Source of the DNA: Magnolia sinica
Lineage: Eukaryota; Streptophyta; Magnoliopsida; Magnoliales; Magnoliaceae
Direction of reading: 5' to 3'
Assembly (NCBI RefSeq): GCF_029962835.1
Contig: NC_080574.1
Span: 41,532,501 to 41,596,500, forward strand
DNA length: 64,000 bases
Part shown: one piece after another, positions 4,486 to 64,000 of the stretch
Layout of the letters: every line of letters begins with the position of its first letter
How positions within the stretch are numbered: the first letter of the stretch is position 1
Position numbers and translations under genes: made by a program
The notes under the pieces: generated by a model
What the model was told of the DNA's origin: nothing
Seen by the model: the letters and a program-made list of their open reading frames with translations, nothing else
Databases searched by the model: none

Positions 4486-4859
4486 GTAAGTTGTTTCAAG
4501 CTCTCGCTGCACGCTTACCCACCAATGCCCCACCACCTCCGCTTTCATCTTTGTTATTTTTTATATTTTTGTTTATGATGTTAAACTTATATGTATTTAT
4601 GCGTGAATGAATGTGGTGTGGATAAGATTGTTTGTGTTTGGATGAATGTACTTTTATGTTTGGATGGATTTACTAGTTTGGGTTTATATGGATGTGTATG
4701 TGAATGTGAATATGATGAAATATATTATATAACAGGTGTATTTCAGGAAGAATATGATGAAATATATTATAACAGGTGTATATATTGTAACAGGTGTATA
4801 TCAGGAAAAATATTTGTTTGTGCAATTTTGTGCTTAAAATTTTTTTTTTTAAAGAGACT

Positions 4860-5613
4860 TTTAGCTACGAAAATTTTCGTAGGTAAAAGTTTTGTAAATA
4901 TTTGTAGCAACGAAAACTTTTGTTGCTAAAAGTCTAACAACTTGTTTTTAGCAACGAACATTTTAATTGCTAAAAGTTGAACGAATATTTTTTATCAACG
5001 AATATTTTCGCTGCTAAAAGTCTTGTAAAGTTTTTTTAGCGAGCTAAAAGTGGAACGAATATTTTTAGCAGCAAAAATTTTCGCTGCTAAAAGTCTTGTA
5101 AAGTTTTTTTTAACGACGAAAATTTTCGTCGCTAAAAGTGGAACTTATATTTTTGGCAGTGAAAATTTTTACTGCTAAAAGTCTTGTAAAGCTCTTTTAG
5201 CGAGCTAAAAGTGGAACGAATATTTTTCGCTACTAAAAGTCTTGTAAAGTTTTTTTAGCGATGAAAAGTTTCGTCGCTAAAAGTGGAACGTATATTTTTG
5301 GCAGCGAAAATTTTTGCTGCTAAAAGTCTTATGAAGTTTTTTTAGCGATGAAAATTTTCGTCACTAAAAGTGGAACGTATATTTTTGGCAGCGAAAATTT
5401 TACTGCTAAAAGTCTCGTGAAATTTTTTTAGCAACGAAAATTTTCGTCGCTAAAAAGATTGCTTTTGGCGATGATTCGAATTTTTCGCTGATAAAACCCT
5501 TTTACGCCGGTCTTTTAGCGACGAAAATTTTCGTCGCTAAAACTCTTTAGCTACGAAATTTTGGCTTTTAGCGATGAAAATTTTTGTCGCTAAAAGTGGG
5601 ATTTCTTGTAGTG
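4860..5613. mobile_element. CACTA transposon, right end with palindromic subterminal repeats
   Basis: The segment ends with GGATTTCTTGTAGTG; its reverse complement begins CACTACAAGAAATCC, a CACTA terminal inverted repeat. Before it lie about a dozen copies of a palindromic unit built on TAGCGACGAAAATTTTCGTC, spaced by spacers with AAAGTCTTGTAAAG. Such subterminal repeat arrays bind the transposase in En/Spm-type elements. No matching left end was found in the window: the upstream side runs into the transposase-like exon and then the telomere-like array, so the element is truncated or starts outside the window. Confidence 0.85.
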
Positions 5614-14674: not shown

Positions 14675-15850
14675 TCAGCAACAGATGGGGCACCGGATCA
14701 AACCGTTCTCGTTGCATTCCCCACATTTCACCATCTTCTTCTTATCCTCATCCAGACCTTGCAGCTCCCACTGCAATCCATGCACATGACGAACCGCATC
14801 CCTCCACACCCATCGCACGATGCTGTGGCCCGCGGGGTACTCTCGAGCAAAATCCCCAATTTTCCCTCTTCTTCCAGCTTCATGACCTCATCTGCACCCC
14901 CAATAAGCCTCCCTTTGACAAAGGCCATAGGAACTCTAACCTCCTGTCCCATCAACACCCTCAGCTCCTCCCGAAGCCCCGAAACCATTGAGACGTCCCG
15001 CTCAATTGTCCGGACACCGTAGGATTCAATCACTGACCGGGCAGCATTGCAGTCCTCGAACGTCTTCCTGATCCCCCTCAATGTCGTCGTGTAAAGTACA
15101 ACTGCATTCTCGCCACCCGGCGGACACCTCTTCTGGAACGATTCAAGCATCGTCTCTGATTCTCTTGACTTTCGGCTCTTGGGTATTGGAGACAACATCT
15201 TCTTGATCTGTTCTCCCTCCTCCGACAGCTCTCTTTCCATAGACTCAAGAAGATCCGGATCGAACAATGGGCTAAAGTTCCGCCTCGACATCGAGAACCC
15301 CGAATCGCTCCTCTGGATTTTAATATCGGCTGGAGCATTCTTCAACCAAAATTCTGATCTTGGCGCAGCCGGTTTTGAATTCTCCAAAGAACTAAAAGGC
15401 CTCAACACCTGTTTTTCATTAAAATCCAACCGCCCACCGCTGCCAGGCCCGCACTCTTGTCTCCTAACATTCTCCTTCCCCTCAAATTTCTTCTGCCTTT
15501 TTGGGGATCGGGTCTGCTTTCTTCCATCGAACTCTGAAACAGTATGCATAAAAACATGGCTTTTAAGCACCGTCTTCGCTGGTGGGGAGATGGGCATTTT
15601 TGGGATTTCGTCTTCGAGGTCCTGCATCAGCTCCCAGGTATTGATGATCTCTGGTTCTTGTTCTGGAACCTTCTTCTGGGTGAGATAAGGGGGTGATTTC
15701 TTGGGTTCTTTGTTGGGTCCGGTGGCATCGAGCTGAAGAGCGCCGTTGGTGCTCGAAGTGAGGGAGACGATGTGATTGGAAGTCGCCTTTGCTGAAGAGA
15801 ATTTCTTGCTTGAGATCAGTTCTTGCCAGCTTAGATGAAACACAGCCCAT
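14675..15850 (-). CDS. Glutaredoxin-domain protein (At5g39865-like), antisense in GLR intron 1, two apparent frameshifts
   Basis: This intronless gene belongs to the plant family of large glutaredoxin-like proteins: a long variable N-terminus, a class-III-like glutaredoxin fold and a Cys-rich C-terminus. The ATG at 15850 gives MGCVSSKLARTDLKQEILF, the typical start with a myristoylation-type MGC. The next family block, SNHIVSLTSSTNGALQLDA, lies one frame off, so there is an apparent 1-bp frameshift near 15780. The main frame then runs through EPEIINTWELMQDLEDEIP to VVLYTTTLRGIRKTFEDCNA, RVPMAFVKGRLIGGADEVMK and CDGCGGMRFVMCMDCSGSCK. The glutaredoxin active-site motif is TTLRGIRKT, without CxxC, as is usual in this family. 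After SCKV a second 1-bp shift (about 14757) leads into LDEDKKKMVKCGECNENG and a Cys-rich end with stop at 14675. As it stands, the single open frame is 15942-14728 (404 aa) with foreign ends. Either a recent pseudogene or sequence errors. Confidence 0.8.
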
Positions 15851-15942
15851 CTGAATCCGACTGAGATTTCTTCAAATTCAACTTCTCTCCACCTTGAATT
15901 CTTGATCCTTTCTTTTTCTTCTCTTGTTGTTGTAGATTTCAA

Positions 15943-20659: not shown

Positions 20660-22772
20660 AATTCAGCCTATACTTTTTTTTTTCAAAAAATAACTTCGTA
20701 TTATATATCATCAAAGGAGAATAGATTTACAACCTAAAGCTATAAGGACAACCCTGAAATAAAAAGACGGGCTGACCTATGCAACAACACTACTGAACAA
20801 CAGAAAAGAGAAAAGAAGGGACGGGGAGAGCTAAATGGCGGTACGAATCGTTCCAAGCCCAACCTTATCGAGAAAAATTAGGCCCCTAATCTCCTTGGGT
20901 ATGGAACCAAAATGCTCATGAATGATTAACGCCTGAGACCCACTCCCTTCTTTTGCCAAGCCCTTAGCCGGATCATTACCTTCACAAAAAATGTGATTAA
21001 AGGAAAAGATTCTGGATTTTTTCAAAGAGATTATCCTGTCTACCCAAGGCTTCCATTTCCACGGGCACGTCGTTTCACCTTGCAGAATGCCTTTAGCCAA
21101 CTTTGAATCCATCTCGACAATTACCCTGTTCATACCTTTTTCTAAATATATCACCATACCGTCATAAATAGCACGCAATTCCGCGAGGTTATTCGATCCA
21201 AAACCATAACCCGCAAAGAAAGTGAAAAGAAAAGATCCATCATCCTTCCTACAAATACCACCACCGCCAAAGTTACCAGGGTTTCCCCTCGCGAACCCAT
21301 TGACATTTAATTTTACCCAACCCAGGGTTGGATGCATCCATTTGATCACCGAGGAAGCTGATCTAAGAAGCCTGGGAGAAGGAGATACTGGAGGTGCTCT
21401 GTTCCGAACAGATGGCTGAGATAGCAGCTGAAAGTTATGGAGAGTTTGCGAGGCCCACCAATTGATCCGACTAATGGAATGCCGGGCGTTCATCACCTTT
21501 TCTCCGAAGGTTGCTTCATTCCTAGCTCTCCATAATTCCCAGAGAATAAGCAGAGGGAGGGTGAATCTGATATGTTGAGGAGTGGAACCTAGCGCGTCAG
21601 CACTTCTCCATTGAAGGATTCTAGCAAGCACCGAAATTGTGGAGGAGGCAGATACGCCACAAAGCCTTTCAAAATGCGCCCAGATTTGGACCGCTTGTTG
21701 GCCCTCTAGGAAAAGGTGGTTGAGTGTCTACCTGTTGGGTAGAGAAGAACTACCCTGATGACAGCAATGGCAAATGGAAGCCAGCGCAATACCCTTTGAT
21801 TGGACTCTGCTATCAACCGGGATGGCATTTTGAAGCAGCCTCCACATGAACACAGATATTTTTGGGGGCAAATGGTTATGCCAAATCCAGTTTCCCCACT
21901 TAACAGAATTGGAGGAAACTCTGAGAATTCCACGCAGATTTTAGAGCGAAATCGCCTGACGGATCTTGGTACCAAACACAAACAGCCAGTTCGTCGGACG
22001 TAGCAAAACCCCTTGAGAAGATTTCATCTATGATATGCTGTGGCAGGAATTGAAATATCCTGGATGGAGGCAACGGGCCTGCCCTGCCCAGAAGGTCCTT
22101 CACCTGCAGATCACGCAATTCATTTGGGATCTGTCCTTCTACGTACTGCTCCAACGGACCCAAATCACACCAGTTGTCTCTCTAGACATTTGCTTCTCCT
22201 CGTCCCACTGTCCAGTGGGAATATTCTTGGATAATAGGGAGGAATGCCCTGATTTTCTTCCAGATTGGAGAGGCGTTTTGTTGGGCTGACGTAGCTTGGA
22301 TCTCCTGCAAATCTCTGGCGTGTTTAAGATGCATCAGATTAGCCCAAGGCCCCTACGTATTTCCATGTTTGAAATTCGAAGAAAGCTTTAAGCGAAGGAC
22401 ATTTAAGACCTCCCTAAGATTTCGAATTCCTAGACCCCCCTCTTCTTTTGGTTTGGAAGCTTTTTTCCACGCAATCTAATGAAACTTCTTCTTTCCTTCG
22501 GCCCAGCCTCAAAAGAAATTAGCAAACTGACTTTCTAGTTTTTGAATTACCTGGGTAGGAATGTGCAAAGCTGCTATTATATGGATCGGATAATTTGCTA
22601 AGACATGGCGGATCAGCGTCGCTCGACCAGCCTGAGAAATGTGTCTGGCCGCCCAGCCCGCAACTCTATTGCTGACCTTGTTTAGTAAGACTTGAAAATC
22701 TGAAGATTTAATTCTCCCTCTGAGTAAAGGGGCCCCCAAGTAAATCATACCATACCAAATTCAGCCTATACT
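20660..22772 (-). mobile_element. 5'-truncated LINE (L1-type with RNase H), with 15-bp TSD
   Basis: The insertion lies between two exact copies of AATTCAGCCTATACT (20660-20674 and 22758-22772), a typical LINE target duplication. A T10 run at the left is the poly(A) tail, so the element reads on the minus strand. From its 5' end it carries the late RT region (22748-22509: GWAARHISQAGRATLIRHVL), the zf-RVT linker domain (22163 downward: DLLGRAGPLPPS, KSAWNSQSFLQF) and an RNase H domain (21631-20831: WVKLNVNGFARGNPGNFGGG, NNLAELRAIYDGM, VEMDSKLAKG). The endonuclease and the RT catalytic core are missing. Frames are broken by stops. It is inserted in GLR intron 1 in antisense. Confidence 0.9.
20831..21631 (-). 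pseudogene. LINE RNase H domain (266-aa frame)
   Basis: The longest intact frame in this LINE. It has an upstream helical linker (LPLLILWELWRARNEATFGE), then an RVT_3-type RNase H with VNGFARGNPG, where N replaces the usual catalytic D of 'NVDGA', then LAELRAIYDGM, MDSKLA and the late HIFCEGNDPAKGLAK segment. The Asp-to-Asn change at the first catalytic position suggests it is inactive even where the frame is open. Confidence 0.8.
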
Positions 22773-23500
22773 AGTATCTAAGCCATCTCTACCATTTAAG
22801 ATTGACAGAATAGAGTTTTCATCCGAGATTTACGATCGTCTTCTCCTTGGAGGAGTATCCTAGCTCTCCTTTCCTTCTCCTACATCTCCATGTGCATTGG
22901 CGACAATCTGGTCATCCATCTTACCTCACATCTCCTACTTATGGTTTAGGCAATTCCCTATGGTATGCTCTATACCTTACAATGCATTAGGATCCAGTGT
23001 ATTGTAAGTCGAGTCCTGTTTGGACCTTTTTGTTTCTTTGATCATTTGCAAACTGCATTAGTTTGTTTTTTACCGGTAGATACACCTCCTTGAGCTCACC
23101 CTATGTTGAGACATTGCGATCTTCTTAGTGGTGATTTGAGCGGATAGCAATATATTAGATCATCAATCTACATTAATTGTTACATCATTCCCATATTGCA
23201 TCTACTTTTTATTTCTTTTCTTTGTGACTACTATATTCTTTGAACCTACCCTAAGTTGAGACATTGTGATTTCCTTACCGGTAATTTAGGAGAATGGTAG
23301 CTTAGTAATTATTTTAGCATTGTCAGTAACTAGTACATTAATATAAGGCTTTTTGAAATCCTGAAAATCTTAAAAATTAAAATTCTAAATTCTGTAAAGA
23401 CCATGCGCAAATATTAACGGTTGAGGTACCTAACCCATTCGATCATTTCTTTTTATCGTATATTAAAGGACGTAGCTAATGCATGGAACTCTAAATGCAG
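22773..23500. other. End of GLR intron 1
   Basis: No gene. It contains a diverged repeat of about 60 bp, twice, near 23092 and 23234 (CACCCTATGTTGAGACATTG versus TACCCTAAGTTGAGACATTG), and ends at the exon 2 acceptor. Confidence 0.55.
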
Positions 23501-24822
23501 CAATGTGCCTCATCAACGATCAGCACGTGCAAGCAATCCTTGGTCTCCACACCTGGGAGGAGACAATGTTCGTGGCCCAGCTTGGTGACAGATCCCACGT
23601 GCCAATTCTTTCCTTAGCTGACGATGCCCCACCTTCGTCCCCTCACCAACCATTCCTAGTTCAAATGGCCCCCAGTCACCGGTCCCAAATGCAAGCTGTG
23701 GCCGCTATCGTTGGTTCATGGGAGTGGCAGAGGGTGGTGGTCATCTACGAAGACTACAACTACGCCGCAGCCGGAGACATCGCCGATCTTGCGGATGCCC
23801 TCCAAGAAGTGAACTCCAATATCGACCGTCGATCAGTCTTCCCCTTCTTTGCCTCCCAACAGGACTTAATCATTGCAATTCAAGAAGAGTTGGACACCTT
23901 GAAAAGCATGCAATCTAGGGTATTTATTGTCCACTCATCATTCACCTTCGCTGTTCAATTGTTCTCACAGGCCAAGAACATGGGAATGATGGGAAGAGAT
24001 TATGTGTGGATCACCACAGACAGCATTACAAATCTCTTGAACACCGCCAACCTGTCCATTATTTCTTCCATGCAAGGTGTTGTCGGTGTCAGGAGCTACT
24101 TCCCGCGGACCAGTTGGCAGTTTAAGGATTTTTGCATCCGATTCCGGCAACGTTTTCGTAAGAAATATCCCATAGAAGATAACTCAGAACCCAGTAGTTT
24201 TGGAGCCCGAGCATATGATGCTGCATGGGTTGTGGCTCAAGCCATGGAAGGGCTTGGAGAAGGAGCTTGGTCAAAAAGTCAATGGTCAAACAGTTCTACC
24301 GTGTTGACTGATCTTAGGGTTTTCTCAGAGGGTAAACAGTTGCTACGACGTATTGTATGGAGTAATTCAGCTAGATTAAGTGGCCATATCCGCTTCTTAA
24401 AGGGTAGATTGGTGCAAGCGGCTGCTCTTGAGATTGTTAATGTGGTGGGAAGAAGTTACAGAGAACTTGGATTTTGGTCACAACAATCTGGTTTTTTTGG
24501 CATGGATGGAGTAGAACTGAACAACAGCACATTTATGCCCATTTTGGGCCATGTGTTTTGGCCGGGGGGCTCTTATGTGCGCCCTAGAGGATGGGCCACC
24601 CCAACAACCGCAAAGCCTCTGCGGATCGGAGTTCCTGAGAAAAGTTCATTTAGCGAGTTTGTAAAGACGAGATTCAATGCAACTTCGAATGAATCATATT
24701 TTGAGGGCTTCTCCATCGATGTTTTCCGGAATGTTGTGAGCAACTTGCCGTATGATTTACCTTACAAGTTCGAACCTTACAGGGGCACCTATGACTCTAT
24801 GGTTGAGAAGATTCATCTCAAG
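23501..24822 (+). CDS. GLR gene exon 2: amino-terminal domain and start of S1
   Basis: Residues 95-535. The acceptor is AAATGCAG|CAATG and the donor is CTCAAG|GTTAGT. The exon holds most of the receptor-family ligand-binding region (ANF type): DQHVQAILG, PILSLADDAP, WEWQRVVVIYEDYNY, GRDYVWITTDSITNLL, GARAYDAAWVVAQAMEGLG, SGHIRFLKGRL. The glutamate-binding S1 lobe begins at about residue 466 (KPLRIGVPEKSSFSEF) and runs through FEGFSIDVFRNVVSNLPYDL. The frame is open over all 1322 nt. The sequence is most like clade-II plant GLRs. Plant GLRs are amino-acid-gated, Ca2+-permeable channels of plasma and endomembranes used in wound and defence signalling; which ligand this one binds cannot be read from the sequence. 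Confidence 0.92.
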
Positions 24823-25474
24823 GTTAGTTATTTCTTTATTTTTTTAATCGTAAGCCTTTCATTGACTAACCGACAGCTGGCGTATGCTTTTAATCGTAAG
24901 CCTTCACTTCATCCTCTTTGGAAATGGGAGGTATTACTATAAGGAAAAAAAAAAAAGAAGTTATTTATTTATTTATTTATTTATTTATTTTAACATGGCC
25001 TCAAATATTATTGATTAAAATAATAATAATAATAATAATAATAAATATAAATAAAACCGGATGTACAACTGCAAACTTCGGACAGGCCTAACAAACAAAA
25101 CGGGACCCACCCATCGTATACCAATAGACACCGCTACAAAGAAAACTACACGACCAGCCAACCAACAAAGACTCAATCGAAAGGGAGCACAACCAGAGAG
25201 CCCCCACGGCTCTTTTTTATTATTATTATTTTTTTTATTTTTATTTTTATTTTTTATAAAGGAAAAGTGGAATCAGTCCACTACCAATTAATAAATGAAC
25301 ATGGGATATACAACCATCATGGCTGGGCCTAACAAAAAGGAATTGGACCCATCCTATCATATGAGACCTATACAAGGCTAAACAGAAAACGAGAGAAAGA
25401 AGACGCTCCTAGAGAAGCAGGAGGGGCTGATCAAGGCGAGCCGAAACACTCAAGGAAGGCAGGTCTTCACCGAG
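24823..25474. other. Start of GLR intron 2, low-complexity and LINE-tail-like sequence
   Basis: It contains (TTTA)n (24961-24990), (AAT)n (25016-25042) and a T-rich run (25215-25258). The text after each tract (ACCGGATGTACAACTGC; GAACATGGGATATACAACC) resembles antisense LINE 3' ends, but no coding part is present. That identification is tentative. Confidence 0.4.
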
Positions 25475-43439: not shown

Positions 43440-46400
43440 TCATTTCAGCTTCTGAGCAATTTCTTGCTTTCGTGGCTATGATGCCTGCGCTCGGCGTCTC
43501 TCTTTTCTTCACCTGCGTGTATGCCAAGTGCTCTTATGTGAGGAGGAGAGAGCTGTGGGGGGATCTGGCTACTCAGTCCTCGGTGTTTGCCGGCCCTTGG
43601 ATTGTCTACGGCGATTTTAATGTAGTCACGTCTAATGTAGAAAGGAATGGTGGAAATTCCTCGTCAGCTACTAGCTCCAAGGAGTTTCAAGATGCTATCA
43701 ATCAGGCCATCTTACAGGATGCAGGATTCTCAGGCAACACCTTCACCTAGTGCAACAACAGGTCAGGGCCGAACAAAAAGTGGGCTAGGTTGGACTGGGC
43801 CCTTTGCTCCTCTGCTTGGCTTCACCTGCTGCCCTCGTTCCTAGTCCAGCACCTCCCAAGGATCCACTCAGACCATTCTCCACCACTCCTCTCTTCACCT
43901 ACGGCCCCTCCTTCCTCCCCAAAGCCATTCCGGTTCCAGAGAATGTTGACTCAGGACCAGAGTTTCTTGGCCCTCGTTGAGTCGGCCTGGAAGTCGGACA
44001 CATTCTTAAACCCTATGATCCATCTCCTAGCCAAGCTGAAGAACACTAAGAAGGCATTGAAAATCTGCAATAAAGAAATTTTTGGCAACATTTTCTCCCA
44101 AATCAAGCTCTCCACGGCAAAGGTTGAAATCCTCGAGCAAAATGCCTCCCACGCCCCCTCCCCATCGACTTTGGATAGCCTTCACTAGGAGAAGAAGAAC
44201 TTGGAGTGGCTGGAGCTCCTGGAAGAAGTTTTCTGGAAACAAAAGTCCAGGAATAGGTGGCTCAAGGAAGGTGATCGAAATTCGAGGTTCTTTCACGCTT
44301 CCACCTCTGACCGCTTTAGGAAAGCTCAGATTAGGGAGCTGACGTTGCAAGACGGATCCAAATCTTCGGACTTATCTCAGATGAAGCAGGTAGCCTCTGA
44401 GTTTTTAAGGTCCTATATTCCGTGGAGACCACTGACTCACCCGACAATTTCCTTGTCAGCATTCCAGCGCTGGTCTCTAGTGCTGACAATGATTTTCTGC
44501 TTGCGCCTCCCTCCATGGAGGAAGTGCACCTTGCAGTTAAAGCTTTACCGCTGGAGGGTGCCCCGAGCCCCGACGGTTTTTCTAGTGCTTTCTTCGCTAG
44601 CTGCTGGCATATCATTGGAGTGGACATCCACAGAGCAATCAAGTTCCTCCTCCAGGGAGGTAAGATTCCTAGAGCCTTCTCTGCAACCCTCCTTTGCTTA
44701 ATCCCTAAGTGCGCCGCCCCCAAGACCCTATCTGATTTTAGGCCGATAAGCTTATGTAATTGCATATATAAGATTTTTTCTAAGGTAATTGCAACCAGGT
44801 TGAGCTCCATTCTCCCCAAGCTCATTTCTAAAGAACAGATGGCCTTTGTACAAGGTCGGTCTATTTCTGAGAGCATTGCTTTGGTCCAAGAGTTACTCAA
44901 GGACATCGACAGGAAGGTCAGAGGGCACAACACCATTTTCAAAATTGACCTCGAGAAAGCCTACGATCGCCTTAGCTGGTCCTTTCTCAAAGATGTCCTC
45001 CTCAATTTTGGCTTCTCCGCTGCGTAGGTTGCCATTGTTGAGGGTTGTTGGTTGTCCCGTGGCTCTCAGTTCGCCTCAACGGTGAATCCTCGGGGTTCTT
45101 CAAGTCGGGGAGAGGGCTTCGCTAGGGAGACCCCCTCTCCCCAAGCCTCTTTATCCTGGGTCTGGAAGCGTTGAGCAGGGCCCTCTCGGCCTTAATCCCA
45201 TCCATCAAATGCTAGCCCTTCAGATCTTCCAAGTCTGCGCCGACCATCTCTCACATCCTTTTCGCGGATGACACGATGATTTTCACCAATGGTGGGGCCA
45301 GGTCAATCAGGAACCTGATGTCCTTCCTCCAAGGCTTCTCTCGAGCATCAAGTCTCAAGATTAACTCGGCCAAGAGTTGCCTTATCTCCTCCTCCAAAAT
45401 GTCGTCTGCTCGAATATGCAAGCTTGAGGGTCTATTAGGCTTCACCCGTTCGCCTCCGTTCTTCACCTACCTGGGGGTTCCCCTCTCCATCGGGCATCTC
45501 AGATCCTCACTCTTCTAGCCTTTGGTTGACAAAATCCTCTCTCGCATCTCGGGATGGACGGCCCGCTTCCTCAACCAGGCTGCCAGATCCGTCCTGATTA
45601 AGCACGTCCTTGTGGGTATCCCCATCCACACCCTTGCTGCGGTTGATATTCCTTCCAAAACGTTGGCTATGCTGGAATCTGGCTTTGCGAACTTCTTCTA
45701 GGGGTGGACCGAAGGTAAGAAAAAACTCCACTAGGTCAGCTGGAGCAGGATCTCAGTCCCCACTGACGAAGGTGGTCTAGGGTTCAAAAAGCTGAAAGAT
45801 ATCGTCTTCTCGTTCAGATTGAAAAGGGCTTGGACAGTCTTCTACGACCCAGGTAACAGCCTTTGGGCAGTCTGCATGCACACAAAATATGGGATTGCCA
45901 GCTCCCGTCCTCCTCTCGCCCAGCGCAGCGCTGCGTCTCCTGCTTGGAAGAAACTCTCGCAGCAATCTGAGTTCCTAATGGATCACTCTCATCTACTCGT
46001 GGGAGAGGCATCAAGCAGTTTTTGGGATACCAACTGGTCCGGAATGGGCCTCCTCAGAAACCATATCCTAGGGGACATTCCGGTGCATCTTCAGGAATTA
46101 CAGATCAAGGACCTCATTAGCCCTGAGGGCCTGCGGCCAGAAGTGACCGTCCCATCCTTCCTTCCTGCTGAAGTTTGTGACCAAATTGCTTCGGATGGTA
46201 TTTCCCTCACCTCTGGCCAGGAATTATGGGTGTGGACAGCAACCAACTCTGGTGAGTTTTCCGTTAATTCAGCTTGGCAGATTATCTACCACCGAGGTCT
46301 CCAGTCGGCTTGGGCCAAATGGGCCTAGAACTCCGTCCTCCCGCCAAAACTCGGGTCTCTTCTTTGGCATGTGCTTAACGATGCAGTGCCTATTGATTGC

Positions 46401-54991: not shown

Positions 54992-55435
54992 AGCACCGGA
55001 AGATGTCTTAGTAAATATATATGAATTATTGATTTTTGAGAGAGAATGACATAGTGACCCTTTTTCGTGTAAGCATACAGATTTCGACTGTTGATATTTA
55101 TAGACAAAATGGACCATTGAAAGGAGATACTAGTGTGGTTCACATTTAACAAATTAATGGTTATATCATCCTTTTAGAGTGATTATGATGCGATGGCTCA
55201 TCTACAATATCAATGGTGATCAGTGGTCCCTACCTTTGAGATATATAGTTCATACCCATCGGTGTGCTAAACTTGTGCAGAAGGTTGCCGACGCAGCTAT
55301 CTTTCAGGATACAATGCCTCAACAAATAGATCTTTATAGCATGCACTAGCTAGGTGCAAGAATCTCAACACCAACACCGTGTGGGTAGCCATCGTAGCCC
55401 CTGGTCCAAGTGGGAATGGCATCCGAAAGTTCTGC
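54992..55435 (+). other. GLR 3' flank
   Basis: 444 bp between the GLR stop and the CACTA element. It would hold the 3' UTR. I see no AATAAA, so the poly(A) site cannot be placed. TGC at 55433-55435 is the left target duplication of the element. Confidence 0.6.
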
Positions 55436-55449
55436 CACTACAGGAAAGT

Positions 55450-56640
55450 AGGCCTTTAGCCTCAATTTTTTAGCCTCGGTTCAAAAAAAGGAGGCTAAAT
55501 ATGGTTTTTAGCCTCGGTTGTAAAGGAACTGAGGTTAAAAATTCACTTTTTGCCTCGGTCGATGAAAAACTGAGGCTAAAAGTCTGTCATTTTGCCTCGG
55601 TTGGTGAGAAACTGAGGCCAAAAGGCTGCCCTTTTGCTTCAGTTATTGAGCAACTGAGGTTAAAAGTCTTCCCTTTTACCTCAGTTGTTGAAAAATGAGG
55701 CCAAAAGTTTGCCCTTTTGCCTCGGTTGATGAGAAACTGAGGCCAAAAGTCTGCCCTTTAGCCTCGGTTGTTGAAAACTGAGGCTAAAAGTTTTCCCTTT
55801 TGTCTCGATTGGTGAGAAATTGAGGCCAAAAGTCTACTCTTTTGCTTCGGTTGGTGAGCAACTGAGACCAAAATTCTACCATTTTGCCTTGGTTATTGAA
55901 AACTGAGGCCAAAAGTATGCCCTTTTGCCTCGGTTGGTGAGAAACTGAGGCTAAAAGTTTGCCCTTTTGCCTCCGTTGGTGAGAAAATGAGGCCAAAAGT
56001 CTGCCCTTTTGTCTCGATTGGTGAGCAACCGGGGCTAAAAGTCTGCCCTTTTGCCTCGGTTGTTGAAAACTGAGGCTAAAAGTCTGTCCTTTTGCCTTGG
56101 TTGGTGAGAAACTGAAGTCAAAAGTCTGCCCTTTTGCCTCAGTTGGTGAGCAACTGAGGCCAAAAGTCTGTCCTTTTGCCTCGGTTGTTGAAAACTGAAG
56201 CCAAAAGTCTGCCCTTTTGCCTCGGTTGGTGAGCAACTGAAGCCAAAAGTTTACCTTTTTACCTCGGTTGGTGAAAAACGGAGGCCAAAGTCTACTCTTT
56301 TACCTCAGTTGTTGAAAACTGAGGCCAAAAGTCTACCCTTTTGCCTCGGTTGTTGAGAACTGAGGCTAAAAGTCTGCCATTTTGCCTCGGTTAGTGAGAA
56401 ACTGAGGCCAAAAGTCTGCCCTTTTGCCTCGGTTAGTGAGCAACTGAGGCTAAAAGTCTGCCCTTTTACCTCGGTTAGTGAGCAATTGAGGCTAAAAGTA
56501 TGCCATTTTGCCTCGATTGGTGAGCAACTGAGGCCAAAAGTTTACCCTTTAGCCTCGGTTGGTGACAAACTGAGGCCAAAAGTCTACCCTTTTGCCTCGG
56601 CTAGTGAGAAACTGAGGCAAAAAATCCACCCTTTTACAGG
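55450..56640. repeat. Left subterminal repeat array of the CACTA element
   Basis: About 27 units of roughly 42-45 bp, each with a short hairpin: TTTGCCTCGGTTGGTGAG, then AACTGAGGCCAAAAGTCTG. The arms GCCTCGGTT and AACTGAGGC are inverted around a 6-12-bp loop. Units vary by a few bases. The long open frames through the array are repeat artefacts. Family knowledge: such arrays bind the CACTA transposase. Confidence 0.92.
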
Positions 56641-57143
56641 CCATATACCAAGGTTGTCACTCAAAGTTGTTGCCCATTCCTAGCTGGAGACGGGCTGGGG
56701 TACGACACGATCCGTGTCCAGAGGGTCATAAATGACATGCAAACACTTTTAATACATGGAATACAAGTAATTAAAATTAAATGGTCCAAACTATTTATGA
56801 AATTTCAGGTGTATCATCAACCAAAAATTAAGCTTATTCTATTATCCAACTATTATATTGGTGGACATTTATTGGACAGTTAAGAATTTAAAATATCCAA
56901 GGGCCCTGTTTCAACAAATAAGTGTCCAAGAATCTGTGGCCAGGATTGTTCAAACTCGACTGTGACCTAGTGTTACTGATTTCTACGATGTAGATAGTTT
57001 GATTTGAGTTAATGTATGCTCAGTATACAGTTTCTGAGTGCATGCGTATCAAGCGTGGTATGCAACCGGAGCATAAAATAAAACTCCCCTGTATAAATTC
57101 CTCTATTCATTTTCTCACTCTCTCAAACTTTCGCGCCCAGAAG
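56641..57143. promoter_or_regulatory. Possible captured promoter ahead of the first cargo gene
   Basis: Non-coding DNA between the subterminal array and the first cargo ATG (57144). It ends with a GTATAAATTCC TATA-like box at about 57092, then a CT-rich leader of about 45 bp (TTCTCACTCTCTCAAACTTT) and the ATG. The order TATA, CT-rich leader, ATG suggests a host promoter and 5' UTR came along with the coding part. The rest is featureless. Confidence 0.4.
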
Positions 57144-57221
57144 ATGAAGTCTTCTACTGTCCAAACACCTCAAAAAGCTGCCATCCGTCGATCGAAGGAG
57201 AAATCCCACAAGGTGCGTTTG

Positions 57222-57272
<51 letters not shown>

Positions 57273-57785
57273 TTTCTCAGATCATCACAAAATCCCTAAA
57301 TCCAGCTTTCTTAGCTGCATCCGAAGCCGATCCGATCGATTCTTCATTCATCTCAGCAATCACAGAAGGAAATCAAGAAACTGATCTCTCTAAAGTATGT
57401 TTCATATCCCAATTCTCCGAAATCTGTGTTGAAATCCATGCAATCTCTTACGTTTGTATGTCCCGTCTGCAAAGCGGTCCAAAACACTCGTTTTCATCTC
57501 CGTCGGACGCGTTTGACCCCACCGATGCATTATAATCCTTCTCTCCACCGTCGATTACTGATGGGAATCAAGGATCTGGTGGATCAGAGGTTTTCAAGAC
57601 GGAGAATGTGTACATTCAGGTGGCCGTTGATTTACTGCTTGCCGCTCATTTCCAGGTCCTGAATTCTCCAAATGTTGATCTCCAATGGAAGAAGCTTCTG
57701 GATTGCCTGATCAAGAGCGCAATCGAGCCGTTAGATTGGCTACCAGAAGAGCAGGACAGGTTTTACAGGCTTCTCCAAGAGAAGG
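57144..57785 (+). pseudogene. Cargo 1: 5' part of an unrecognised host gene
   Basis: Exon 1 (57144-57212) encodes MKSSTVQTPQKAAIRRSKEK plus SHK, with donor AAG|GTGCGT. A CT-rich intron ends CTCAG at 57280. Exon 2 (57281 to about 57785) encodes IITKSLNPAFLAASEADPID, then SFISAITEGNQETDLSK, and further on, after one in-frame TAA (about 57530), GGSEVFKTENVYIQVAVDLL and NSPNVDLQWKKLLDCLIKSA to EEQDRFYRLLQEK before GTATGG. The frame stays in phase for about 500 nt with a single stop, which supports former coding. I do not recognise the protein; it is Lys/Arg-rich at the start and helical later. Confidence 0.55.
57228..57268. repeat. (CT)n microsatellite in the cargo-1 intron
   Basis: An uninterrupted CT tract of about 40 bp forming the pyrimidine tract before the exon 2 acceptor of cargo 1. 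Confidence 0.93.
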
Positions 57786-58889
57786 TATGGATCGGATTAC
57801 TCCGTGTTTTCATGTGGATCATTTCGGTGTCAGTCATCATGGATCGAGATGCCCGAACTGGGACGGGATTTCCTGGCATGACGCCTCCTACATAACGGTT
57901 TCTAGGGATGGCACGTGCGTTGCATGTGAGACGGAGGCCGAAATGAGATGACAAAGTGGTTAAAAAAAAAAAAAAAAACACAGACAATTGATACACATTA
58001 CCTCTCTTTTTTTTAAAGCTCGAAATTCAAGGTACTGAAATTGGACGGATCTAGTGGATGAACTTACTTGTCCAGGCAAGTATCTATTTTCTCTTATACC
58101 TTATGAAAACCTCAGAGAATTAAATGATTGTAATTATATGGAGATTGATTGAAACTGAAACTCCTGTTCTTAATTATGTTGTAGGCAAACTGTGAGATTA
58201 CTAATGCAAGAAACTAGGTGATCGTTGTCAAACAAATATGAGTTTTCCACTTGCTATCCTAAACATGACCCCTAATAATGGAATCCATGCCTCAACATGA
58301 TAAAAATCATTACCTTTCTTTTCTTTTCCCTTGGAATACATGTATCCAGACAAGTATCCAAGTTATGAAGCACTCCATCTACATATCTATGCACCGAAAT
58401 ACAAGGTCTCAACCATTAATTTGTCATGCCCTACTGATTGGAACAACTTTGCCACCAATTGAAAGGCTTCTGTAAATTGAATGTTGACCATTGGTTGGAG
58501 TTTTCCTAGCCATCCATTTGCATCCTCAAAAGTTCTCTGAACAATGGATAGGATCACCCGAATTGTGTGATTTCTGGAGAAACACTTTTTCAACTTCAAA
58601 TTTGGAACATTTTCCTAATCCACAGTGGGCCCATTAGGTCAATGGTATGGTTCACCCAAAAATGTTCCATGGATCACCAAACAATGTTAGAGACTTGTAT
58701 GAATGGGCACATCCAGACCCGATAAATCCTCATTGTTTAGAAGAATTTGAACAGGGCAGATCATGCTTCACAGATTCTGCATGTTTTCACTTGCTAACAA
58801 AAACAAGCAGTATGTTTGATAATTCAAGAAATAACAAGACTTGTTAGTTAAAGATATACTTCCATTCTAATTAGTGATTGTTGATGTAG
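57786..58889. other. Spacer between cargo 1 and cargo 2
   Basis: No coding sequence recognised. It includes an A17 run near 57963 and dispersed-repeat-like text at 58430-58650. Confidence 0.5.
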
Positions 58890-59065
58890 GTTATACTCTG
58901 CATCTTTTCTGTTGCAAATTCCCTTTCAACCTTAGCAAGGGCATTCTCATTTGCTTTTGGTGATTTACGTGCTGCAGTTCAGGTGCATACTAAGCTTCTG
59001 AACAAGCTTATCAATGCACCTGTAATATCTTTTGATCAAAATCCAAGTGGAAGGATACTTAACAG
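58890..59065 (+). pseudogene. Cargo 2: one exon of an ABC transporter, subfamily C (MRP type)
   Basis: The exon lies between GATGTAG and GTCAGA. Its translation contains LCIFSVANSLSTLARAFSFA, GDLRAAVQVHTKLLNKLINA and SFDQNPSGRILNR. This is the intracellular loop between transmembrane helices of the second membrane domain in ABCC transporters ('...A...VH..LL..I..AP..FFD..P.GRILNR'), closest by memory to the ABCC13/MRP11 type. It is open with no stop and has intact splice sites. None of the other 10 or more exons is present, so it cannot encode a transporter. Confidence 0.85.
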
Positions 59066-61004
59066 GTCAGAATAGGATATAGCATCTCAAAGCTTCATTC
59101 TCTTTTGTATGGTTTTGGTGAGCCCTCATGAACCTCTCTACATGCAGCTTACATGCCAACCTGGCACATGTAGCAGACATCCGAACCATGCAAACAGTGG
59201 GGCTCACTGTGTAGATGAACTGGCCCAAAAATTGGCCTTGTCAGCTCATCAGGTAACACATCTATGGGTGAATCTTATCCACTGACAATTTTTTAAACCC
59301 ATCCATTATGTTTGTAAACGTGTGGCCACCTTATGAGTTGATCTGCCCTTCTTAGCCATGTATCTACATACATGTCCACCTGATGCATGGCCTGGACTTC
59401 CATATCATGAAGTTGCCATGCGTGTCCACATATAGAGATACATGTGGAAAGGTGCGCGTGGGCTTAGCAGAACTCCTATATGGTGTATTTGTTTATATAT
59501 TAGTCTTTAATATCTGATTGGACTATTTTAATTCTTTATGATCATATTTCTTAATACTACCTAGATAAAGTATGTTGTTAAGACATTTAATTGATATGTG
59601 CAGATTCTGTTCTTGCTTCTATTATGACCGTTTTGGTATATCTACAAAAAATTGCAGGTATGTGTCTAATACAATTTCTTTCTGCTAATATTTATTCCTT
59701 AATGATGAGCATACTTGGGATGATGATGATAGTAAAAAACCAAATTATTTATTTTCAAGTTAATCTGTATGGTTTTATGATTATGTCCATTTTCTTAGTT
59801 TATTTCTAAGAAAGTAGGCAAAACTAGTATTTTTAAGAAAGCAGAATAGCAGTAGGCAAAAGAGAGCATGCATGTAGGTAATTTTCAAGAACCGAGCTGA
59901 AAATCATATAATTCTGTAGAGTTTTTATTTGCATATTCATTTGTCTATGGGTATGACGAAGAAAGGGCAAGTCATACTGGTTTTGGTACCCAGACGAGTC
60001 ACGTTCTGAAACGCTACTTAAATCCATGCCCAGTGGGGTACATGGAGCCCACAAATAAATGATAATAAACATCTAGTCATTGTTTTTGCTGAAAATACTA
60101 ATCATTTTCACAAATTATTGTGGCAATGAAATAAGCACACTGCTGATTTTTGAATTTGGAGCATCACCACCAAGAAGCTAAACTGTTGTTTGGAATAATT
60201 CTAAGATACATTCAAGGTTTTTCTTTGTTTGAGCCTGTTTAAACTTGTGTGCCATGTGAGGAGTAACTGCCAAGTTCAGAATGGTAACAACTCTTCCAAC
60301 AGAACAGGGAAAAGTTATATGATAATCTAGATTGTACAAATAACTTAACCGATTGTGCTTTGAGCATAAAACAGAATTTCACCAGCCACATGAAATTAAT
60401 CATTTGATTTTGCCTTGGAATTTAAACCATTCACTGTTAACCATCCATTTGATAACCATCAATCAAATGATGATTATCTTTGATTTATTAATGGAATTTT
60501 GAAATGATAAATAGCCATGCATGAGTGTCACATTTGAGGAAGATGACTCACAAAACTACCATTTTCAAGATGTTTGTGAGCTCTGACATGTATGATGACT
60601 CCTTTGATAGTTAACTACAATTTTAAGAAAAATGGTGGTAACTCTTCCAACATACACATGTCACGGTTATATGACAATCCAGGCTGTCCAATTGCTTGCC
60701 CAATTGTGTTCGGAGCATAAAGTTACACAGGTAACCACATATCCGGGCCATCCTAATTGCTGGCCCAACTGATATTTCAATTTGGCCCTTTGGAATTTGA
60801 GCCAATCGCTGTTTGACTTTTAACCGTCAAATGGTTGGTTAGGATTGGTTGATTAGTGGGAATTTCGTCACATGGTCCATTCATTAGGCCCTGAACAGGC
60901 CTTCAATGCAGGAGGAACTATTCCTAAATCATTGAAATCTGTAAAAGAAACCGTGGTATCCATGCTTCAGCTTAAATCAGAAACAGCTGGGGCTAAAAAT
61001 CAAA
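59066..61004. other. Spacer between cargo 2 and cargo 3
   Basis: AT-rich, mostly intron-like. One exon-shaped segment (59601-59657, after TGTGCAG and before GTATGT) encodes SVLASIMTVLVYLQKIA; I could not assign it. The stretch 60872-61000 is open (EQAFNAGGTIPKSLKSVKET) but also unassigned. Two similar phrases, 'GGTAACTCTTCCAACA', at about 60281 and 60646 suggest an internal duplication. Confidence 0.5.
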
Positions 61005-61115
61005 ACAGGGATTTTCTTCATCATTGGTGTGGTGCTAAATGCAGTTGCCTAGGACCTTGCCATGCTCATTATAGGAAGGATCTTCCTGGGGTGTGGAGTC
61101 GGCTTCACTAATCAT
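61005..61115 (+). pseudogene. Cargo 3a: sugar transport protein (STP) fragment
   Basis: The translation FFIIGVVLNAVA, a stop, then DLAMLIIGRIFLGCGVGFTN matches the third and fourth membrane helices of plant monosaccharide/H+ symporters ('FLAGAVLNAAA.DLAMLIIGRILLGVGVGFTNQ'). One TAG replaces the residue before DLAML. It is followed by 100 bp of unrelated sequence before the next STP piece. Confidence 0.85.
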
Positions 61116-61215
61116 GTCTTTTTCTAGTTCCACTTCCGATTTATTCTTTATTTTATTTTAATTTAGTTCTATTTAATCAACAAATCTGGCCCACCACCAA
61201 TTTCCCATATCGAAT

Positions 61216-61510
61216 TACGGTGGTGGTGCGGACCAGAACTCACAATCCATCTTAGGCTAGCTGGGATCCCAACCCTCCTCCTGACTGTCAGCTCCATTCT
61301 GGTTGTTGACACTCCTAAAAACCTCATAGAGCGTGGCCACCTCAAAAAATTGAAGGTAGTGCTCAAGAAGATCTGTGGAACCAGCAACGTTGAGCCTGAG
61401 TTCCTGGAGCTTATGGAGGCAAGCCGTGTGGCCAAGGAAGTAAAGCACCCATTCAGGAACCTCCTCAAGCGATGCAGCCGCCCACAGCTGATTATTGATG
61501 TGGTCATGCA
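61216..61510 (+). pseudogene. Cargo 3b: second fragment of the same STP gene
   Basis: The translation WWCGPELTIHLRLAGIPTLL, then SSILVVDTPKNLIERGHLKK, EPEFLELMEASRVAKEVKHP and FRNLLKRCSRPQLIIDVVMQ follows the STP order from helix 6 through the central cytoplasmic loop ('SRVAKEVKHPFRNLL..RNRPQL'). It stops where STP genes continue with IFQQFTGIN. About 45 codons that should separate it from the first piece are lost. Both pieces are on the + strand in the correct order, so one STP segment was captured and then eroded. Confidence 0.88.
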
Positions 61511-61774
61511 AGTCAGCCTCCCTGGCTTTATAAGTATAAAACACCCATAACAAATGACAAAACGGGTCATTTTCATAGCTAGACCTGATTAGTCTGATTT
61601 AGTTATCTTTAATTTCAGTGATCCACTGCAGTACCAAACACCCACAATGATTAACGATGTGGGTCATCTTCATTGGTAATGCTAGTGCCCAGTTTCTGGA
61701 ATTTTCTTTCCTTTTCTTTCTTTTCTAAGTCTACAAGAGCATCCTGTAAAATCCTTCAATTTCTCATTGTGCAG

Positions 61775-61938
61775 GAAGGATGTGGTGTCACTGCCGAATG
61801 ATTTATCTGCCCATGTCGTACTATGGGAAGAGGTTTGTTGGTCCAATCACACCATTAATTTTTTCATTGAGAAAGGAGCTCTACATGACCCCGTATCAAC
61901 AAGTAGATTGGAATCAAGCCTACAATTTTTGTGCAAAG
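61775..61938 (+). pseudogene. Cargo 4: one exon of an oxidosqualene cyclase
   Basis: An exon between TTGTGCAG and GTTAGG. The translation [20 protein letters not shown], then [20 protein letters not shown] and [12 protein letters not shown] is diagnostic of plant oxidosqualene cyclases (cycloartenol, lupeol and amyrin synthases: '[25 protein letters not shown]'). These enzymes cyclise 2,3-oxidosqualene to sterol or triterpene skeletons at the ER. One Leu codon of MSYLYGKR is missing. The frame and splice sites are intact, but the catalytic DCTAE exon is not present. Confidence 0.92.
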
Positions 61939-62292
61939 GTTAGGTTAGTTACATCAGTGTCTTTCTGATGCACTCCTCAATAAGTTTGTTTTTGTTGTTT
62001 TTTTTTAAATAAAAAATTTTAAAAAAATTCTTGTATTGTTTACCTATGGACGTGAACACTGTAATCAGCCATTCAATCTTTTTGTAAATGGATTATTGGT
62101 AAAACTTCATGATTTTGGGAAACAACAAGTTGGGTGAGTGGCCATCACTGTGGGTTTGAGTTTACTAGAACTAGATAGCTCTTACTTCACTCAAAACCTA
62201 CATCAACAAAGAGGAGTAATGTTTTTTCTTCCATTTTCTGAAGCTGTTATAGTTTTTGAGTTTACTAGAACTAGATAGCTCTGATTTTACAG
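61939..62292. other. Spacer between cargo 4 and cargo 5
   Basis: Intron-like DNA with a direct repeat of TTTACTAGAACTAGATAGCT at about 62160 and 62259. No coding sequence. Confidence 0.5.
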
Positions 62293-62389
62293 GACGATTG
62301 TTTACAAAGGTCAACTAAATCCAGGTCAGCTAAATGGCTACTATTATGGAGATCTTGGCCAGGAAAGGTTTACAAGCTACATGGCCCTG
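62293..62389 (+). pseudogene. Cargo 5: one exon of glutamate synthase (GOGAT)
   Basis: An exon between TTTTACAG and GTAAAT. The translation [20 protein letters not shown], then [12 protein letters not shown] matches the N-terminal glutaminase domain of plastid glutamate synthase ('[39 protein letters not shown]'). The family transfers the amide nitrogen of glutamine to 2-oxoglutarate. The exon ends exactly where the family continues with VHSRFSTN. No other GOGAT exon is visible. Confidence 0.9.
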
Positions 62390-63494
62390 GTAAATATACT
62401 CACCATTCTCCATAATTTTTGATCGAAAACTCCACATTTTAACAGCAAGGAAAAAAAAAATTGGGAATTCATTGGTGAAGGGACATACATAAGGTTGAGC
62501 AATGAGTTGGAATTTGACCGATTTTTAAGTTGTCCTACTGTCTTATTAGTTATTACTTTATTAAATTTCCTTGCTGGATGCCTTCAATAAGTTTGTGAAG
62601 AACCATGGTGTGTGCATTGAATAAACTTGATGAAGTGCTCCTATGACAGCAATTAAGGATGGTATTCCAATTTAAATGTGGATGAGACATTTTATTAGGT
62701 TGATGTAGCTTTAGGTTTCAGTGATACTTGTTTCCATCTTCTATCTGATCTTGGAATACTTGCGTTCTTCTTTCATCCTATTTGAATTGCATGATCTTTG
62801 ATGGTTTTTACTGATAATCTTCAATCTATTTGAGCCTACACCAACAAATTGTGCTGCGAACTATGAATTTTTTTTATTTTTTATTTTTATTTTTGACAAT
62901 TGATTTTATTCAGAAACAAAAAGGAAACAAAGGCAGCAACAAAACAGGGATACCAAAACAGTGATCATCCAATCTCATGCTCTATTTTCTTTAGATTCTT
63001 TCATTTGATATTTCTTTTTATTTGCTCTTTTAAATTCATCCCAGACCGTTTGTTTGATTTCTTTTTGTGCAATCTATGGGGTATATCACGCTTTTGTATG
63101 ATCTCTCTTGATTTATGTCTATCCTCTTACAATTTTGTGTTTCTATTTTCAGGCAAACATAGGTACATATCTCGTATCAATGGCCAAACAGCACATTATG
63201 TTGCTTCCTCAAGAAGGAGACCTCCAACAGTCCCAGTCTCAGTGCCCTGTGGTGCAATTCCCAAAAAAACACAACCAAGGAAAAATTCTCTCAATGAAGC
63301 CAGCAGTAGCAATGACAGAAATCATGGATGTACAACAACAGCAGCAATGGCAGTTTGTTTGTTTTGAAAACTTTAAATATACCATTAATTGTTTTGTTGG
63401 TATTGTGTTGATTGTTGTCTTGATGGATGTTAAATGCGTGAAACATGCACAGGTTCCATCATTGGTTGATTATAATATTGTTAGCTTTTGTTGA
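62390..63494. other. Last interior stretch of the CACTA element, possible sixth cargo exon
   Basis: AT-rich up to about 63150. A TTTCTATTTTCAG acceptor then precedes an open segment (63153 to about 63490) that reads YLVSMAKQHIMLLPQEGDLQ and, in another frame, SRINGQTAHYVASSRRRPPT. Codon use is not decisive and I recognise neither product. If real it would be the 3' exon of a cargo transcript. Confidence 0.35.
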
Positions 63495-63499
63495 TAGAA

Positions 63500-63990
63500 A
63501 CTAGATTTAGCCTCGGTTATTAATAAATGATGTTAAAAATTGAATTTAGCCTCAGTTGACGACAACAAAGGCTAAATTCATCTCTAGTCTCGGTTTTGCC
63601 TCAGTTACCTAAACTGAGACTATAACTCCCATGGCTAAAGGTTGTAGCCTCGGTTATTGAGAACCGAGGTTAAAAATAGTTTTAGCTTCGGTTAGAGGCA
63701 ATTGAGGCTAAATTTGGATTTAGTCTCAGTTGGAAACAATGGAGGCTAAAATTTTAATTTAGCCTCATTTCGAGAAAACTGAAGCTAAAATATTCTTTTA
63801 GCTTCACTTGAAGAACCAAGGCTATAAATGTCATTTTAGCCTCGGTTGCTAAAACTGAGGCTAAAGCATTTAGCCACGGGGGTTTCAACCTCGGTTTAAA
63901 TAACTGAGGCAAAACTGAGGCTAAAGGTTTTAGCTTCAGTTTTTAACCTTTTTAGCCACAGTTTTGAACTGAGGCTAAAGCCCCCTTTTC
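63500..63990. repeat. Right subterminal repeat array of the CACTA element
   Basis: About a dozen units with TTTAGCCTCGGTT and its inversion AACTGAGGCTAAA, more diverged and less regularly spaced than at the left end. The same core motif at both ends confirms that they belong to one element. Confidence 0.9.
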
Positions 63991-64000
63991 TTGTAGTGTG

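Follow-up and report, generated by a model that had tools for sequence, protein, structure and literature searches.

How does a DNA transposon come to hold pieces of several unrelated host genes, all in one orientation, and does the resulting mosaic work as a gene? The question is raised by a locus of Magnolia sinica, where a complete non-autonomous CACTA element occupies positions 55436-63998 of a 64,000-nucleotide stretch of contig NC_080574.1 (C2:41532501-41596500; hereafter the window). An earlier reading made from the sequence only had described this locus as a Pack-CACTA element carrying exons of at least five unrelated host genes. Searches of the same genome (1.84 Gb in 127 contigs) point to an answer that we hold with a probability of roughly 85%: the element belongs to a non-autonomous Pack-CACTA family that took up host sequences stepwise, swapped its 3' halves through nested or adjacent insertion followed by hybrid-end transposition, and was then amplified.

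Structure of the Element

The element and its cargo comprise the following features, in window coordinates.

55433-55435, no strand: 5' copy of the target site duplication (TSD), TGC; the 3' copy is 63999-64000 plus the next genomic base, C
55436-55467, + strand: 5' terminal inverted repeat (TIR), beginning CACTACAGGAAA; 32 nt, 81% complementary to 63967-63998
55548-56635, + strand: 5' subterminal tandem array, a palindromic 42-bp unit repeated 26.1 times
56640-58494, + strand: constant 5' arm, common to cargo classes I, II and III (in class IV, to 56900 or 57017)
57092 and 57144, + strand, inside the 5' arm: TATA-like TATAAATTCC and ATG, respectively
57536-57892, + strand: 5' open reading frame (ORF), 119 aa in the window copy
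58546-60247, + strand: ABCC capture; source C10:75.03 Mb, about 95% identity
58890-59065, + strand: ABCC exon A
59604-59657, + strand: ABCC exon C, with one stop
61006-61700, + strand: STP capture; source C13:6.44 Mb, 90-94%
61693-62158, + strand: oxidosqualene cyclase (OSC) capture, exon about 61775-61938; source C9:0.990 Mb, 89%
62282-62593, + strand: GOGAT capture, exon 62293-62389 plus the following intron
63204-63500, + strand: 3' backbone segment, with matches at numerous sites in the genome
63505-63998, + strand: 3' subterminal repeats, with units related to the 5' array, and 3' TIR, last bases TTTTCTTGTAGTG

CACTA-type TIRs, a 3-bp TSD, and subterminal arrays in direct and inverted orientation place the element in the CACTA superfamily, and the two termini and matching arrays noticed by the sequence-only reading are borne out. 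That reading had also staked itself on the base after position 64000, which was read as C and completes the TSD. Both ends belong to one element: the TSD is perfect in the window and in all 12 of the 18 relatives described below in which both exact ends were located, two of these 12 sharing TAA and the rest differing. Pfam scans of both strands found no transposase domain in the window interior, and the window copy is therefore non-autonomous. Host gene DNA lies between the TIRs and has moved as a unit in more than one copy, as in Pack-CACTA (Pack-TYPE) elements. The segment 63204-63500 is probably the element's own 3' sequence; a query containing it gave 503 first-look candidates, of which 40 were scored.

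Captured Gene Pieces and Their Sources

The cargo could be assigned to four host genes, and the genome was searched with each recognized piece. Matches were found for ABCC (Pfam 4e-6; PDB 8e-14 once a sibling exon was added), STP (Pfam 2e-6; PDB STP6/STP10 2e-14), OSC (PDB 7.5e-20; no Pfam match for the window's OSC piece), and GOGAT (Pfam GATase_2 1.1e-6; PDB only 0.022). The pieces map to separate loci, their sources or nearest gene lying on C10 (ABCC), C13 (STP), C9 (OSC), and C5 (GOGAT). The proposed donor search thus yielded source loci at 89-95% for three of them, the nearest GOGAT gene reaching just 74%.

The ABCC capture consists of a 46-bp piece (58546-58591), originating 1.66 kb further upstream in the C10 donor, joined with a 2-bp overlap to 58590-60247. 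The window matches the donor across this larger part except for a 155-bp gap, and in the sibling copy L014 the match is unbroken (1.81 kb, 95.7%). A middle exon retained in L014 is deleted at 59509/59510 in the window, so that the window holds two ABCC exons and its siblings three because the 155-bp deletion took out the middle one. What had been taken for a single ABCC exon is therefore a stretch spanning several. The two STP pieces reported earlier are present (61006-61254 at 94% and 61251-61700 at 90%, overlapping by 4 bp); they derive from one donor gene, of which 1.08 kb, including by eye a further STP exon, is skipped between them. At the OSC source, neighbouring OSC exons are present in order by eye. 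The nearest recognizable GOGAT gene, at C5:3.70 Mb (74% over 329 alignment columns), matches in the GOGAT exon, acceptor site included, and in the intron behind it; farther downstream the next exon of the gene was recognized by eye. Two loci at C7:1.01 and C12:66.33 Mb match the GOGAT piece at 93-94% and are probably elements, since in both the 3' backbone lies about 1.5 kb from the match. A candidate donor at C16:7.99 Mb (82%) was dropped, its upstream sequence being without the intron/exon border seen at C5.

The four captures probably took place at different times. The identities of 95, 90-94, 89, and 74% fit such a sequence of events, although the exon/intron content differs between pieces.

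Element Family and Cargo Classes

The sequence-only reading had called for a search for further copies. With the 5' 601 bp as query, 956 candidates were obtained and the best 40 scored; 18 near relatives at 92-96% were fetched and compared with the window, seven of them with the same cargo. The relatives fall into the following classes.

Class I (the window's cargo): L010, L012, L014, L016, L022, L026, L027, and the window, eight copies
Class II (61234-62459 replaced): L017, L023, L024, and the shorter L019 and L021, also without STP; five relatives
Class III (NOT1 plus STP): L015, L025; two relatives
Class IV (zinc-finger/ankyrin cargo): L013, L018, L020; three relatives
L011: class I copy with an internal deletion that joins 57638 to 61768

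In class II, a kinase-like piece was seen in L017, the sole member scanned (Pfam 1.6e-5, below the curated cut-off). L015 carries NOT1 (4e-39) and a differently cut piece of the same STP gene, and L025 is 97% identical to L015 over most of its length. The zinc-finger and ankyrin pieces of class IV are weak matches (7e-4 and 1.4e-3 as ORFs; 0.02-0.03 in full frames), and this class also has a piece, without a Pfam hit, that we presume to be PRMT-like. The eight class I copies diverge by only 1-5% (Jukes–Cantor 0.012-0.054), and this set was therefore amplified after the captures.

Several further loci touch on the family and its cargo. The STP cut of class III (donor 30-518) differs from that of the window; the 136 bp common to both STP cuts (61006-61141) match at 93-95% at 10 places listed, L025 and nine others, and at 93% in L015, and one STP gene may have been sampled twice. 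L032 (C10:13875500-13883500) is a rearranged locus with 5'-arm, ABCC, STP, and OSC pieces, its ABCC piece including the exon missing from the window. Similar partial matches lie at C18:48.61, C7:50.79, C19:30.64, C56, and C5:47.47-47.49 Mb, which suggests an older related lineage without GOGAT. L031 (C1:20625762-20635761), a relative with a similar 5' array (88%), carries a Transposase_24 coding region and an ALIX-domain piece, both in sense orientation, and was later hit by a copia-type retrotransposon. Among the eight class I copies, variability is uneven: 7 of 300 columns vary across 58590-58889, part of an ABCC intron, far below the 85 of 390 at 57395-57784. The low value may be due to base composition or gene conversion.

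Mosaic Arms and Internal Ends

Arms were compared in 16 copies including the window; L025, L026, and L027, in which the 3' ends were not exactly found, were left out. The 5' arm (56601-56900) is 94-99% identical in the 16 copies whatever the cargo. The 3' arms (last 480 bp) form three groups that are 87-91% identical to one another: classes I and II together with L011 (97-99% within the group), class IV (96-98%), and class III, represented by L015 alone. Three 3' lineages are therefore found behind a single 5' arm.

The joins seen in class IV suggest a possible reason. In L020 the common arm ends at window 57016/57017, where a CACTA end that has a subterminal array of its own follows directly, and the same join is present in L036 (C18:17.40 Mb), which was read as a candidate stand-alone partner element and proved to be a second composite. 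L013 and L018 have L020's cargo without the inner end, and subterminal repeats remain at the join (5 and 4 motif hits, respectively; mononucleotide shuffles of the interiors average 0.10 and 0.17). Their outer TSDs are perfect, CAT/CAT in L013 and AAT/AAT in L018.

We hypothesize that the family took up genomic segments of ABCC, STP, OSC, and GOGAT genes together with introns, and that a second CACTA element inserted in or beside the first. Transposition would then have paired one element's outer 5' end with the other's distal 3' end, so that the 3' half, cargo plus 3' end, was exchanged, and the hybrids would have been amplified by transposition with 3-bp target duplications. We infer that hybrid-end transposition of this kind made the mosaics, and that the transposase of a related autonomous element acts in trans.

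The 5' Open Reading Frame and Coding Capacity

The 5' ORF is the cargo candidate that had been counted as a fifth host gene. Four of the five stand; the 5' ORF is without an established donor. It extends to as many as 296 aa among the 15 copies compared, in 11 of which the frame stays open for 178 aa or more, and it has no Pfam match and no meaningful PDB match (best E 0.26). Its peptide has 23 matches in the genome (25 first-look candidates, all scored), 15 of them the window or fetched copies. Matches at C2:120.3, C3:26.06, and C3:7.76 Mb (two rows) also hold other element segments, and the match at C17:1.16 Mb is an element with its 5' end in place. Two further matches were dropped as donors: C18:52.02 Mb has a related CACTA 3' end, and at C12:31.41 Mb, where there are no recognized ends, the frame is broken. 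The locus at C14:5.66 Mb (L039/L040, C14:5654800-5662800) resembles window 56736-58055 at 89% with an open frame of 305 aa; it adjoins a copia element, and no CACTA end was found in the roughly 8 kb read. This locus could be a relic of the 5' ORF source or a stripped element. The 5' ORF itself is either native to the element or was captured from a donor that is lost or survives as a relic such as that on C14.

Substitutions in the 5' ORF resemble those of an unconstrained sequence. Across the 15 copies, 156 distinct substitutions comprise 49 synonymous (51.0 expected from context-matched random placement), 98 nonsynonymous (97.3), and 9 stops (7.7). In the eight class I copies, variable sites in six native-frame exons (two of the 5' ORF, ABCC A, STP 2, OSC, and GOGAT) number 45, 36, and 41 at codon positions 1, 2, and 3, and 50, 41, and 47 when two extra exons read in the wrong frame are included; in the 3' segment, whose frame is unassigned, they number 10, 9, and 2. 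No purifying selection on the reading frame is visible in the 5' ORF (15 copies) or the captured exons (8 copies), where variable sites are not in excess at codon position 3.

The exact exon boundaries with GT/AG sites had prompted the idea of an exon-shuffled RNA. Such boundaries are to be expected, since introns were captured together with their exons, and with neutral-like substitutions a working exon-shuffled gene is not supported. Among 14 GT/AG sites examined, 12 are unchanged in all eight copies. Conservation of this kind was set aside as a sign of function, few changes being expected in any case at about 10% variable columns. The exceptions lie in OSC: the acceptor is altered in L026, and the seven copies other than the window have a gap at the donor site, probably the result of a local duplication in the window. 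The cargo is thus probably a passenger, and any RNA made from it would probably be a spliced mosaic without a selected coding function.

Alternative Explanations

The mosaic arms could also have come from ordinary homologous recombination between CACTA copies, or from gene conversion between them, an explanation that we regard as unlikely, though not negligibly so. The long common 5' arms offer abundant homology for it, and an internal CACTA end is absent from the switch points 58494 and 61234/62459. Against plain recombination stand L020 and L036, where the switch falls exactly at a second CACTA terminus, and the subterminal repeats that L013 and L018 retain at theirs. Several observations also weigh against stepwise capture with hybrid-end transposition. 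The outer flanks of L020 are GTA/GTG by eye, an imperfect TSD, and L036 is known as a composite from its join. The interiors of classes I-III (window, L014, L017, and L015) gave 0 internal CACTA motif hits each; since no remnant of an inner end is present in these copies, the fusion step for the window's own class would follow by analogy with class IV. No stand-alone partner of the class IV lineage was found, the candidate L036 being a composite, nor was an intact autonomous element bearing these exact ends identified. The GOGAT source is distant, with closer matches listed at C18:22.73, C3:126.94, and C10:7.13 Mb.

Other explanations concern what the assembled element does. It may act mainly in trans, as a source of small interfering RNAs (siRNAs) against the ABCC, STP, OSC, and GOGAT donors. 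CACTA elements are commonly silenced, and the 1.8 kb over which L014 remains 95.7% identical to the ABCC source would leave long identical stretches for pairing; the GOGAT (74%) and OSC (89%) pieces have diverged too far to allow much perfect pairing, and we consider this role improbable. Still less probable is a functional chimeric gene, in which the 5' arm would supply a promoter and first coding part, the captured exons would be spliced to it, and the product would be under selection. The TATA-like box, unchanged in six of eight class I copies, speaks for such a gene, as do the 5' ORF open in most copies, the largely unchanged splice sites, and the sense orientation of all recognized host cargo. 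The neutral-like substitutions of the 5' ORF speak against it, as does the state of the window copy, which is without one ABCC exon and contains stops.

Cargo Orientation

The earlier report of a single cargo orientation agrees with our analysis: ABCC, STP, OSC, and GOGAT all lie on the + strand of the window. The window, L015, L017, L018, and the more distant L031 were scanned in full frame against Pfam (E up to 0.05), with slightly different spans on the two strands of the window and of L031. On the + strand, seven host-gene families (GATase_2, Ank, zf-met, Not1, Sugar_tr, Pkinase, and ALIX) were recognized, and on the - strand none (sign test, p 0.016). The ABCC and OSC pieces, which other searches had identified, share the sense orientation and would bring the count to 9:0 (p 0.004), and the transposase region of L031 is likewise on the + strand. 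The count was not fully blind, since seven + and two - hits, judged to be chance or low-complexity matches, were left out of it. Those on the + strand were SNX17 FERM (4e-4 as an ORF, 0.032 in full frame), tRNA-synt_1e (0.0079), Importin_rep_6, SR-25, YxzE, GerPC, and DUF4407; those on the - strand were Atrophin-1 and DUF3915, both low complexity at a TC repeat of the window. These two aside, the full-frame scan of the window's minus strand contained no host-gene domain. The corresponding + strand scan found GATase_2 and missed ABCC, STP, and OSC, so full-frame scans are insensitive on either strand.

This sense-only bias is the least explained feature of the family, and it rests on few captures, two of them weak. 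It might reflect an exon-trapping assembly line, in which the promoter-like 5' arm and its open frame would be joined time and again, by swapping of 3' halves, to new cargo. Only sense hybrids would persist, since cargo in antisense would expose the element's transcription unit to premature polyadenylation or to silencing triggered by double-stranded RNA. We consider this reading quite doubtful. In the open-licence literature, we recognized no paper on orientation bias of CACTA cargo.

Other Features of the Window

A second, different CACTA-type end, TTTCTTGTAGTG (minus-strand match 5602-5613), is present within 4859-5613, where it is preceded by a palindromic tandem array (TTTTAGCGACGAAAATTTTCGTCGCTAAAAGT-like). 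A degenerate CCTAAA telomere-like repeat occupies 27-938 and 2435-4302, at a chromosome-internal location (C2:41.5 Mb), and between these stretches lies a 171-bp tandem duplication (2094-2423). Four further ORFs are listed below under presumed identities.

14728-15942, - strand: resembles a glutaredoxin-domain protein
20831-21631, - strand: resembles an RNase-H-like fragment
23479-24942, + strand: resembles a glutamate-receptor-like gene
44422-45027, + strand: resembles a fragment of a LINE (long interspersed nuclear element) reverse transcriptase

Relation to Known Systems and Significance

Helitrons, which transpose by a rolling-circle mechanism without TIRs or TSDs, differ in this from the Magnolia family. 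The two are alike in stepwise capture and in the sharing of fragments among relatives, since parts of a study of maize Helitrons describe gene-fragment segments that were acquired stepwise and are common to related elements (PMC3288121).

CACTA cargo from several genes is already known, to judge from portions of the literature on soybean, maize, and Arabidopsis. The soybean element Tgm-Express1 carries intronic and exonic pieces of five genes, which according to sections of the report serve as cassette exons in chimeric transcripts from the host F3H promoter (Zabala and Vodkin, 2007; PMC1947982). The Magnolia family resembles it in carrying pieces of several genes, introns included. As far as those sections go, Tgm-Express1 was studied as one insertion of 5.7 kb, in F3H intron 2, with transcripts seen (PMC1947982); the Magnolia family, in contrast, offers several swapped cargo sets and source loci. 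Excerpts of a survey of Pack-TYPE elements describe conserved ends, a variable captured interior, multiple loci per element, and AB-type fusions of two elements, with maize Pack-CACTA holding the most distinct captured loci (PMC8903248). The expectation that captures usually involve one or two genes is thus too low for the published cases, as far as these sources extend (five in Tgm-Express1; PMC1947982, PMC8903248).

The Magnolia family shares conserved ends, captured DNA, and fusions of two elements with Pack-CACTA elements as they appear in these excerpts. The joins in L020 and L036 and their derivatives L013 and L018 are the product expected under the fusion model that Catoni et al. (2019) developed for Arabidopsis Pack-CACTA, as recounted in parts of PMC8903248 and PMC13317346. 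Compared with the Arabidopsis elements as recounted there, the internal end is visible in two Magnolia copies, two derivatives retain remnants of it, and the exchange takes in entire 3' halves. No paper on Pack-CACTA in Magnolia or Liriodendron was found in the open-licence literature.

The distinctive aspects of the Magnolia family are its visible intermediates, its traceable sources, and an unusually clear swapping of 3' halves. Copies of the family could be annotated as fragments of ABCC, STP, OSC, or GOGAT genes, which calls for caution in gene annotation. Few cases so far inform the debate on how class II transposons put together cargo from several genes. Here the likely intermediates coexist, as composites with an internal end, derivatives without it, and amplified hybrids. 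With these intermediates and traceable sources, both the model of nested insertion with hybrid ends and the sense-only bias are therefore testable by genome-wide counting.

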